The notes under the pieces are model-generated. The model was given only the letters and a program-made list of their open reading frames with translations, searched no databases and was not told the DNA's origin. From Candidatus Abyssobacteria bacterium SURF_5 (GTDB lineage: Bacteria > Abyssobacteria > SURF-5): a DNA stretch of 64,000 nucleotides. This document shows positions 16,523 through 20,575 of this stretch, one piece after another. Made by a program: the position numbers and the translations under genes. The stretch lies in contig QZKU01000128.1 in the NCBI GenBank assembly GCA_003598085.1, forward strand, positions 124,001-188,000, written 5' to 3'. Each line of letters begins with the position of its first letter. Position 1 is the first letter of the stretch.

Positions 16523-17590
16523 ATGTTGCTGGATAAGCTGAACAAGATAGAAGAAAAATATCAGGAGTTAAACCGCCTGATGAGCGACCCCGAAATTGTG
16601 GGCGATCCGGCGGCGTATCAGAAGCTTGCCGGGCAGCACGCCGATCTCTCGATCATGGTGGAGAAGGCCGAGCTGTATCGAAAGCTATTGCAGGACTTGC
16701 AGGCAGCCGAGGATATGCTCCGTCAGGAGAAGGATGAAGAGCTTTTGCGTTTTGCCGAGGAGGAGAAGGCACAGACCGAAGAACGGCTGGACGTCCTGGA
16801 GCGAGAGCTGAAGTTGCTCATGGCGCCGCGGGATGAAAAGGATGTGAAGGACGTCATTATGGAGATCCGTGCGGCGACAGGCGGCGAAGAGGCGGCTCTT
16901 TTTGCGGCAGACCTTTTCCGGATGTACACGCGGTACGCAGATGGGAGGCGCTGGCGCTGGGAAGTACTGAACAGCAACCCGACCGGCATCGGCGGCATGA
17001 AGGAAGTGATCTTTTCCATTACGGGAAAAGAGGCATACGGATACTTGAAATACGAGAGCGGCGTTCATCGGGTGCAGCGTGTTCCGGCAACCGAGGCGGG
17101 CGGCAGAATTCATACCTCGACTGTCACAGTGGCGGTTTTACCGGAAGCCGAGGAAGTGGAAGTGTTCATTGATCCGAAGGACCTGAAGATCGATGTTTTT
17201 CGCTCATCCGGTCCGGGCGGGCAAAGCGTGAACACAACGGATTCGGCGGTGCGGGTTACGCATTTACCCACGGGACTGGTTGTAAGTTGCCAGGATGAGA
17301 AGTCCCAGCACAAGAACAAGGCGCGCGCGCTTCGGGTGCTGCGGTCGCGACTCCTCAGCGAGAAGGAGCGACAGCAGGCGCAGGAGATTTCCGCCACCCG
17401 GCGCAGTCAGGTCGGTACGGGCGAGCGGAGCGAGCGCATCCGAACATACAATTATCCTCAGAACCGAATCACCGATCATCGCATCGGGCTTACCCTCTAT
17501 AAGCTGGAATCCATTTTGAATGGGGATCTTGAAGAAATTATCGATGAGTTGCGACTGGCCGATCAAGAGGCTAAAATGAAGGCGATCTAA
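16523..17590 (+). CDS. prfA: Peptide chain release factor 1
   Basis: RF1 reads UAA and UAG stop codons and triggers peptide release. It is 355 residues. The GGQ motif lies at 232-234 ([16 protein letters not shown]), and the codon-reading PxT tripeptide is PAT (188-190), which identifies RF1 and not RF2. The N-terminal coiled-coil domain is complete. prmC, which methylates the GGQ glutamine, follows after 2 nt, a conserved pairing. Confidence 0.97.
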
Positions 17591-17592
17591 GG

Positions 17593-18495
17593 GTGCGTCC
17601 TGAGAGGGTTTTTCCAAAACCGTCATCGCACGTGATAATCATCGACATCCTCCTTCAAGCCGAGGCAGTTCTTCGGGCTTCCTCTGTTAGTGAAACTCCC
17701 CGCCTGGATGCCGAAGTCATGTTGGCTGATGTGCTCGGCATAGATCGTTCCCGCCTGATTGCTTCCTATTCCGACTGGATAGATACAAGCGCCGCCGGAC
17801 AGTTTCAACGGCGGGTCGAACGGCGTGCGCGAGGCGAACCGGTATCTTACATAACCGGGAAGAGAGAATTCATGGGTCTCAGCTTCCGGGTGGACGGGCG
17901 GGTGCTGATTCCCCGCGCCGAGACCGAAACTCTTGTCGAATACGTCCTGCATGCTCACAGGGAGAGCGGGATTCGCCAGGTGCTGGACGTGGGAACCGGT
18001 TCGGGTTGTATCGCGGTTTCGCTTGCCGTTTATCTCGCGGACGCGGTGGTGTATGCGACCGATGTCTCGGCGGTCGCGCTCGAGGTCGCTCGAAAGAACG
18101 CCGATATCCACCGGGTTGAGCGCAAAATACAGTTTTACCAAGGCTTCTTGTTTGATGGGCTGCCGCAGGAGTTGAAGGGAACGTTTGATGTAATCGTTTC
18201 AAACCCGCCGTATATCCCCGATTACGAGTACCCGCTCCTGCAGAAGAATGTGCGTGAGTTTGAGCCGCCGGAGGCGCTGCGGGGTGGGCCGGACGGCCTT
18301 GACTGCTTTCGAAAGTTAGCCGGTGAGTGTCCGGACTGGCTCGCTAAAGATGGAATGCTGGCGGTCGAACTGGGGGAGGGCCAGATGCAGAAAGCCTCTG
18401 CCTTACTGGCAGAAAAGGAAAGAATCGAGGTCGTTGACATTGTTCGCGATCTGGCAGGGAAACAGCGGGTGATAGTGGGGCGAAGGAAGGCATGA
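17593..18495 (+). CDS. prmC: Release factor glutamine N5-methyltransferase
   Basis: PrmC methylates the glutamine of the release-factor GGQ motif using S-adenosylmethionine. It is 300 residues. Motif I is DVGTGSGCIAVSLA (132-145) and the catalytic NPPY lies at 204-207. The N-terminal helical domain holds PRLDAEVMLADVLG, typical of the family. The start is GTG at 17593, just after the prfA stop, with a weak AAGG; a later GTG at 17632 is possible. The 3' end overlaps radC by 4 nt. Confidence 0.95.
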   Translation: MRPERVFPKPSSHVIIIDILLQAEAVLRASSVSETPRLDAEVMLADVLGIDRSRLIASYSDWIDTSAAGQFQRRVERRARGEPVSYITGKREFMGLSFRVDGRVLIPRAETETLVEYVLHAHRESGIRQVLDVGTGSGCIAVSLAVYLADAVVYATDVSAVALEVARKNADIHRVERKIQFYQGFLFDGLPQELKGTFDVIVSNPPYIPDYEYPLLQKNVREFEPPEALRGGPDGLDCFRKLAGECPDWLAKDGMLAVELGEGQMQKASALLAEKERIEVVDIVRDLAGKQRVIVGRRKA

Positions 18496-19187
18496 ACGAG
18501 CGACAGAAGACGCCGATGATACGGGAAATGCCGTCGAGCGAGCGTCCACGCGAGCGGCTCGCGAAGCGTGGAGCGAGCTCCCTCAAAAATTCCGAGTTAT
18601 TGGGAATCCTGTTTCGGACGGGCACGAAGCATATGAATGCCATCGAGCTGGCCGAAAGCACGCTGCAGAAATTCAATGGCTCGCTCGGATTGCTTGCGCG
18701 CGCAAACATCGATGAATTGTGCGGCTGCGAGGGGATAGGCTTTGCGAAGGCGGTCGAGGTGCAGGCGGCGTTCGAGTTAGGCCGGAGACTGGCGAACGAG
18801 GAAATTAAGAACCCGATCATAAAGTCGCCGAAGGACGTGGCTCGACTGATGACGCCGGAAATGCAGTCGCTGGACCGGGAACATTTTAAGGTCCTCTTGC
18901 TGAACACGAAGAACCATGTAACGCAGGTGCATACGGTATCAATGGGGTCTCTCAATGCGAGCGTGGTGCACCCGCGTGAGTGTTTTCGGCCGGCCATCGC
19001 CGCGCAAGCGGCGGCGGTGATCCTTGTTCACAATCATCCGAGCGGAGATCCGGAACCAAGCCCGGAGGATATCAGTCTGACGCGAAGACTCGTTGCTGCG
19101 GGCGATTTGCTTGGAATTAAGGTGCTTGATCATGTTATAATAGCAGGAAACAGATTTGCGAGTGTAATGGATAAAGGAGTGAAATAA
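18492..19187 (+). CDS. radC: RadC/JAMM-domain protein
   Basis: A RadC-family protein of 231 residues with a UPF0758 helix-hairpin-helix N-terminus (LLARANIDELCGCEGIGFAKA) and a C-terminal JAMM metalloprotease-like domain, HNHPSGDPEPS (His180, His182, Asp186 as zinc ligands). A DNA-repair role was once proposed but is doubtful; the biochemical function is unknown. ATG at 18492 overlaps the prmC stop, so coupling is likely. An AAAGGAG within its last codons is the ribosome site for psd. Confidence 0.93.
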   Translation: MNERQKTPMIREMPSSERPRERLAKRGASSLKNSELLGILFRTGTKHMNAIELAESTLQKFNGSLGLLARANIDELCGCEGIGFAKAVEVQAAFELGRRLANEEIKNPIIKSPKDVARLMTPEMQSLDREHFKVLLLNTKNHVTQVHTVSMGSLNASVVHPRECFRPAIAAQAAAVILVHNHPSGDPEPSPEDISLTRRLVAAGDLLGIKVLDHVIIAGNRFASVMDKGVK

Positions 19188-19188
19188 G

Positions 19189-19839
19189 ATAAAAATTCCG
19201 GTTGCAAAGGAAGGATATAAGATACTTTTCGCCTGTGCGGCGCTGGGTATAGCAGGTGGTTTTGTGCATCCGGCTCTTTTTGCCGTCGGTGCATTTTTTG
19301 GGTCGTTCAGCCTGTACTTCTTCCGGGACCCCGAGCGGTCGCTTCAGGTGTTGCCCGGTCAGATCGTTGCTCCGGCCGATGGAAAAGTGGTGGCCATCGA
19401 CGAGGTGCAGGAGAGGGAGTTTCTGGGCATGCGCTGCAAGCGGATCAGCATCTTCCTTTCCATCTTTAATGTCCATATCAACCGCGCCCCGATCGGCGGC
19501 AGGGTTGAGATGGTCAAGTACACGCCGGGAAAATTTGCTTTTGCCAATACTATTGACGCGTCGGCGCGCAACGAAAACAACTTCATCGGGATCGATGGCG
19601 GCGACGTGCGGGTGGCGGTGAAACAAATAGCGGGCGCGGTCGCCCGGAGAATTATTTGCTACTGCCGCCCTGCTCAGGATATTGCCGCCGGCGAGCGGAT
19701 CGGCATGATCAGATTCGGTTCCCGAACAGAATTGTATCTTCCGCTCGATTGTGAAGTTCTTGTGGCGGTAGGCGAGACGGTAAGAGGAGGCATAAGCCTC
19801 GTGGGGGCGTATGATGCGACGATCGCGAAAAAGGCGTAG
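19189..19839 (+). CDS. psd: Phosphatidylserine decarboxylase proenzyme (short PSD-A type), apparent AUA start
   Basis: This enzyme converts phosphatidylserine to phosphatidylethanolamine at the membrane. It self-cleaves at Gly-Ser to make a pyruvoyl group; here the site is FGSRTELYLP (G177-S178). Other family marks: YFFRDPER, VAPADGKV (Asp64), FNVHINRAP. Two hydrophobic helices lie near the N-terminus. The conserved N-terminus of the short family, IPxAKEGY, is encoded from 19189 as IKIPVAKEGYKILF, but the first codon is ATA. AAAGGAG lies 9 nt upstream of it. The first standard in-frame start, GTG at 19264, would remove 25 conserved residues. So the start is an AUA (or AUU at 19195), or the base is an error. 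pssA overlaps the 3' end by 29 nt. Confidence 0.9.
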   Translation: MKIPVAKEGYKILFACAALGIAGGFVHPALFAVGAFFGSFSLYFFRDPERSLQVLPGQIVAPADGKVVAIDEVQEREFLGMRCKRISIFLSIFNVHINRAPIGGRVEMVKYTPGKFAFANTIDASARNENNFIGIDGGDVRVAVKQIAGAVARRIICYCRPAQDIAAGERIGMIRFGSRTELYLPLDCEVLVAVGETVRGGISLVGAYDATIAKKA

Positions 19840-20575
19840 CAGAGTCAATATCTTGCCCAGTCTGCTGACAATCGGGAACATGTACATGGGCCTGCTCTCA
19901 ATCGTGTACACGATAAATGGTCAGTTCGAGATAGCCGGTTGGCTGATTCTGGTAGCCTTGTTGTTTGATGGAAGCGACGGCCACATCGCCCGTCTCACCA
20001 AGAGCGCCAGCAATTTCGGCAAAGAACTGGATTCGCTGGCGGATGTGGTGACGTTCGGAGTAGCCCCGGCGGTGCTTGTCTACAGGAGCGTGCTTCACAA
20101 TTATCAGCACATAGGCGCTTTTATTGTGACTGTTTACGCGATTACGGGCGCTCTTCGGCTGGCGCGTTACAATATTCAGAGCGGGTCGGTGGTGAAATCG
20201 TTTACCGGGCTGCCCATTCCGGGCGCAGGGTGCCTGGTGGCTGCGATTGTCCTGATGAAAATGAAGTATGAGACCCCGCTGATCGAGGCATATCTGCCGC
20301 CATTCATGGCTGCGCTTATGATCGCGCTTGCCTTCCTCATGGTAAGCCGGATCATCTATCCGAAGCAGGAGATATTTCTGGTACACCGGCACAGGGCGTT
20401 GCAGTATACCTTTATCCTGATCCTCATTTTCAGCCTTGTCAGATTGAAGCCGACTCTGTTTGTCTTTGTGATCTTCTTCTCTTATGCGCTGGTCGGCCCG
20501 CTCAATTACCTGGCGCGGAATCGTCTTTTCGGCGGCAAGCTGCAACTGGATCAGGAAGAGGCGAACGCGCAGTAA
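19811..20575 (+). CDS. pssA: CDP-diacylglycerol-serine O-phosphatidyltransferase
   Basis: PssA makes phosphatidylserine from CDP-diacylglycerol and serine; the product is the substrate of the upstream psd. It is 254 residues with about seven to eight membrane helices. The CDP-alcohol phosphotransferase motif is present from residue about 53: DGSDGHIARLTKSASNFGKELDSLAD, listed here in pieces as DGxxAR, G, D and D with normal spacing. The start ATG at 19811 (or the next codon, 19814) lies inside the end of psd. The psd-pssA overlap implies translational coupling. Confidence 0.93.
   Translation: MMRRSRKRRSRVNILPSLLTIGNMYMGLLSIVYTINGQFEIAGWLILVALLFDGSDGHIARLTKSASNFGKELDSLADVVTFGVAPAVLVYRSVLHNYQHIGAFIVTVYAITGALRLARYNIQSGSVVKSFTGLPIPGAGCLVAAIVLMKMKYETPLIEAYLPPFMAALMIALAFLMVSRIIYPKQEIFLVHRHRALQYTFILILIFSLVRLKPTLFVFVIFFSYALVGPLNYLARNRLFGGKLQLDQEEANAQ

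Follow-up and report, generated by a model that had tools for sequence, protein, structure and literature searches.

Organization of the psd locus

We looked at the locus of psd, the gene for a phosphatidylserine decarboxylase (Psd), an essential enzyme of membrane-lipid synthesis, in a stretch of 64,000 nucleotides from Candidatus Abyssobacteria bacterium SURF_5 (contig QZKU01000128.1), referred to below as the window. For comparison, we used the three genomes of the phylum present in our collection, one per genus: that of the window (G000), G001 (JACRIR010000121.1, locus L005) and G002 (locus L004). Their Psd proteins are 64% (G001) and 61% (G002) identical to that of the window. G001 was deposited under the name Candidatus Poribacteria, but the genome collection assigns it to the family of the window, so this label may be outdated. 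The features of the locus are listed below, with positions counted from the first letter of the window.

16523..17590, + strand: prfA, release factor 1 (PF03462/PF00472; synteny)
17593..18495, + strand: prmC, release factor methyltransferase (PF17827; synteny)
18492..19187, + strand: radC (PF04002; syntenic in G001 and G002)
19173..19179, + strand: Shine-Dalgarno sequence AAAGGAG, 9 nt before ATA, within the final radC codons
19180..19182, + strand: TGA, in frame with psd and two codons upstream of its proposed start; position shared by the three genomes
19185..19187, + strand: radC stop codon TAA, 1 nt before the proposed psd start; TAG in both relatives
19189..19191, + strand: ATA, proposed psd start codon of the AUH type (AUA, AUU or AUC); ATC in G001, ATT in G002
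19189..19839, + strand: psd, phosphatidylserine decarboxylase, 216 codons, with the predicted FGSR self-cleavage site G177-S178
19264..19266, + strand: GTG, first in-frame canonical start codon, psd residue 26; not a start codon in G001
19811..20575, + strand: pssA-like CDP-alcohol phosphatidyltransferase gene (PF01066; synteny), with its own ATG start

The order prfA-prmC-radC-psd-pssA-TPR was common to all three genomes. In the window, prmC and radC overlap by 4 nt (ATGA, 18492-18495) and the last 29 nt of psd (19811-19839) are shared with pssA, and because of these overlaps the prmC-radC-psd-pssA stretch looks translationally coupled. The operon also holds the gene of release factor 1 together with that of its methylase, and the radC stops, TAA or TAG directly before the AUH codon, are both release factor 1 codons. 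From this arrangement, a release factor 1-dependent control of radC-psd coupling is conceivable.

Psd matched PF02666 (E=1.2e-41) and the profile NF003678 of the short PSD type (228 bits for a cut-off of 225), and was the single such match in the genome of the window. Within the FGSR motif, G177 and S178 were invariant in 38 sequences, and this pair is the predicted self-cleavage site giving the pyruvoyl group. The AlphaFold model of the protein (mean pLDDT 91) had E. coli PSD as best PDB matches (E 4e-6, TM about 0.5) and contained a helix hairpin formed by residues 8-26 and 28-44. The profiles, the invariant FGSR and the fold matches to E. coli PSD together indicate that psd does encode a genuine phosphatidylserine decarboxylase.

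The psd frame opens at a non-canonical codon in the three genomes

A first-pass annotation of the window had put the N-terminus of Psd at ATA 19189, with AAAGGAG 9 nt upstream, and had reported that no canonical start precedes GTG 19264. The reading frame confirmed this second point: after the TGA that closes it at 19180 it runs uninterrupted from 19183 to a stop codon whose last base is 19839, and neither ATG, GTG nor TTG occurs in it upstream of GTG 19264. Positions 19173-19200 read AAAGGAG TGA AAT AAG ATA AAA ATT CCG, followed by GTT GCA AAG GAA GGA. The gap of 9 nt between GGAG and the start is ordinary for this genome, being found in 7 of 41 genes.

When the relatives were compared at this codon, a non-canonical AUH was found in all three genomes, ATC being aligned with ATA 19189 in G001 and ATT in G002. 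In both relatives the frame likewise opens right after a TGA, without a canonical start at the aligned codon; the first canonical codon in the frame comes at +25 in the window, at +9 (TTG) in G001 and at +11 (ATG) in G002. All three loci share the spacing of GGAG plus 9 nt, a TGA that closes the psd frame two codons ahead of the AUH codon, and a radC stop separated from that codon by just one nucleotide. An assembly or sequencing error hiding a true ATG could be imagined from the window alone, ATA being one base from ATG in a draft genome of 145 contigs. However, ATC and ATT stand at this codon in the relatives, which belong to other genera and were assembled independently, and since the three assemblies have no canonical start and all differ in the third base, a single error cannot be the cause; we regard this explanation as virtually impossible. 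RNA editing of AUA to AUI was rejected as well, as it cannot account for the ATC and ATT of the relatives.

In 118 of 118 evaluable psd loci from other phyla, a canonical start was found within -15 to +4 codons of the position of ATA 19189, and the nearest homologues start exactly at the aligned codon (MRSPIHKEGF in Riflebacteria, MRIPIAKEGY in Nitrospinaceae and MRFPFAEYG in Scalindua). Across the three genomes, 6-8 of the 11 residues encoded by codons 1-11 are identical, 5-7 of those through different codons, and over codons 1-25 the third-position differences outnumber those at first and second positions. The two codons upstream of the start showed no conservation, and a TGA stands before them; readthrough of this TGA was rejected, because there is neither a start nor conserved coding there. 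Residues kept in spite of synonymous variation argue that codons 1-11 are translated, and by this comparison the psd region before GTG 19264 appears to be translated.

We then weighed a shorter Psd truly starting at the downstream canonical codon GTG 19264. A weak AGGTGG lies 4 nt upstream of this codon and the Pfam domain match begins only at residue 37, as would suit such a start. Against it, the protein encoded by codons 1-11 is conserved, and the position of the first canonical codon varies among the three genomes. Relatives beginning at the later GTG were not found: G001 reads ATA at that position, so a downstream GTG start is not conserved. Furthermore, the first-pass annotation had anticipated that beginning there would cost 25 conserved residues with part of a membrane helix, and in the model it would remove the predicted membrane helix 8-26 (pLDDT of about 95). 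A start at GTG 19264 is thus improbable.

A second way of doing without an AUH start would be programmed +1 frameshifting in the last codons of radC, as in prfB, leading to a RadC-Psd fusion: tRNA-Lys would slip from AAA to AAU at AAA-UAA while the ribosome pauses on AAAGGAG. This deserves mention because the psd frame is +1 to that of radC and a Shine-Dalgarno-like stretch lies before the radC stop, 2 nt ahead of the last radC codon; the prfB frameshift layout likewise has such a stretch before its slip site. The slip from AAA to AAU is feasible in the window, but radC has no conserved slippery codon before its stop, its final sense codon being AAA, AGA or AAT depending on the genome, and AGA to GAU or AAU to AUU would re-pair poorly. 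Moreover, the closest psd genes outside the phylum, which are not preceded by radC, have ATG at the aligned codon, and no RadC-Psd fusion was seen. We therefore hold a frameshift to be highly improbable.

Altogether, the relatives, the codon-level conservation, the Shine-Dalgarno spacing and the position of the outgroup ATG back the N-terminus at ATA 19189, and initiation of psd at this AUA is well supported by these comparisons. The first-pass annotation had left a choice between AUA 19189 and AUU 19195; only the former stood, AUA 19189 being the better candidate since G001 has TTT in place of AUU 19195 and 15 nt separate this codon from the Shine-Dalgarno sequence. With an AUH codon in every available genome of the phylum, the finding is confirmed, on firmer ground than the window alone could offer, and the alignments indicate that the odd psd start is a real inherited trait of the phylum. 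A regulatory RNA structure was also sought around the psd start of the three genomes, and no common fold was found (z-scores -0.08, 0.34 and -1.82). As a practical consequence, gene finders limited to ATG, GTG and TTG will truncate Psd in these genomes, and that of the window would be shortened by a whole membrane helix.

AUH starts elsewhere in the genomes

The gene of IF3, infC, has long been known as the textbook example of an AUH start and therefore provided a built-in positive control. In all three genomes infC starts at ATA with GGAGG 9 nt upstream (loci L085 in G000, L086 in G002 and L087 in G001), and gene callers probably miscall its start in these genomes too.

Two ortholog scans, drawing on 760 kb, 569 kb and 800 kb of sequence from the respective genomes, were carried out. 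In the first, covering 262 filtered ortholog pairs and not demanding a Shine-Dalgarno sequence, psd was the sole gene with conserved protein ahead of any canonical start in all pairs; we attribute the other candidates to upstream genes that overlap or to coincidental ribosome sites. In the second, 216 ortholog pairs were searched for a Shine-Dalgarno sequence and an AUH codon at the conservation boundary with no canonical start, which yielded psd in every one of the three pairs, alongside infC (ATA/ATA) and a single false match due to misalignment. Thus psd and infC are the only credible AUH-start genes in the 216-pair scan, the sensitivity of which is limited, an aligned canonical start with a Shine-Dalgarno sequence being assigned in just 74 of 216 pairs; for this reason further AUH genes may exist. 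As the two scans gave only psd and infC, within this limited sensitivity, a lineage-wide relaxed start rule was rejected.

An odd initiator tRNA was rejected too. Candidate initiator tRNAs, found through the GGG-CCC anticodon stem, had the ordinary CAU anticodon in G000 and G002, and none was recovered in the draft G001. As a separate observation, the palindrome GGGTTTGAAACCC occurs in about 20 copies in G000 (e.g., L100 at 8082 and 8159, L106 at 5251 and L205 at 15677) and is absent among the matches listed for G001 and G002; it is possibly a repeat family or the end of a mobile element.

Initiation of psd and its possible control

The reading that we consider likely is that psd is functional and that fMet-tRNA(CAU) initiates it at the near-cognate AUH codon, weakly, in a manner tied to IF3 and partly through reinitiation after radC. 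The initiator fMet-tRNA(CAU) would begin psd at AUA 19189 (AUC or AUU in the relatives), and ribosomes would reach this codon via the Shine-Dalgarno sequence of psd itself and/or by reinitiating after they have ended radC. IF3 proofreads the weak third pair of fMet-tRNA at AUH codons (PMC10158994; PMC5472188), and this weak third codon-anticodon pair would make psd initiation inefficient. In S. aureus, ccpN, citZ and cvfC1 are expressed from their AUA or AUU starts at about 10% of the level obtained with AUG in poor medium, ccpN reaching up to 30% in rich medium (PMC13009471), and in M13 reinitiation takes place across the 1-nt stop-start gap of geneV-geneVII and is lowered by excess IF3 (PMC2268962). 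Since such S. aureus starts are weak and the 1-nt gap matches M13 reinitiation, Psd synthesis is probably low and owed in part to ribosomes that have just completed radC. We infer on sound grounds that the weak start would restrict Psd output in comparison with RadC and PssA; Psd would then be held low compared with its operon neighbours and tied to the IF3 level, as for infC.

Whether this weakness serves regulation is a separate matter. The strongest remaining alternative to a selected throttling is that the AUH start is merely tolerated, coupling to radC making the codon unimportant, with neither IF3 regulation nor selection for weakness. Mere tolerance is favoured by the single nucleotide that separates radC stop and AUH codon in each of the three genomes, by the presence of radC beside psd in just one other locus examined (L251), and by the small number of third-base changes, which does not prove an avoidance of G. 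Yet AUG is one base away and was not regained in three diverged genera, and the AUH state matches that of infC in the same genomes; we find mere tolerance rather unlikely. The third base of the psd start changed at least twice without turning G, a pattern for which we estimate a probability of about 0.3-0.45 by chance alone. Because this pattern could be chance, it does not prove that weakness was selected and not just tolerated, and the failure to return to AUG in the three genomes is only suggestive of selection.

Regulation of psd by IF3 may be inferred by analogy, and we put forward tentatively, as a possibility, that psd is IF3-controlled, the AUH codon behind radC tying the PE-forming step to the IF3 level and to radC termination. 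If true, initiation fidelity would set the PS/PE balance, in an operon with release factor 1 and its methylase. An AUH start kept by a housekeeping lipid enzyme across three genera suggests in any case a throttling of Psd, with possible IF3 control. No earlier account of a non-canonical psd start was found in the open-access literature, including that on Abyssubacteria.

Comparison with known systems

To our knowledge, very few bacterial genes have kept AUA, AUU or AUC starts over long evolutionary times. Without a usable canonical start, and with an AUH codon at normal Shine-Dalgarno distance conserved in three of three genomes, psd is a new gene in this small known class, and the mechanism is not of a new kind. 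Like infC, which is known with AUU, AUC or AUA starts and for its autoregulation by IF3 and which carries its ATA in the same three genomes, psd has an AUH codon behind a good Shine-Dalgarno sequence with a 9-nt gap. Unlike infC, it stands 1 nt behind radC and encodes a lipid enzyme instead of the regulator, so any effect of IF3 on psd would be one-way. In E. coli, an AUU start limits pcnB; both are enzyme genes with an AUH start, pcnB being another gene of another lineage, outside a radC operon.

Conserved AUA or AUU starts are found in S. aureus infC (AUA), ccpN and cvfC1 (PMC13009471). The conserved near-cognate starts of ccpN (AUA) and cvfC1 (AUU) in S. aureus and Bacillus resemble that of psd, although these are other genes in other phyla, with extended Shine-Dalgarno pairing and proof by ribosome profiling (PMC13009471). 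In Streptomyces, IF3 represses the non-canonical start (GTC) of sigR; here both starts are non-canonical, whereas gene and codon differ and the effect of IF3 was tested in sigR (PMC5472188). Finally, geneV-geneVII of M13 and radC-psd share the single nucleotide from stop to start, the M13 start being a canonical AUG (PMC2268962).
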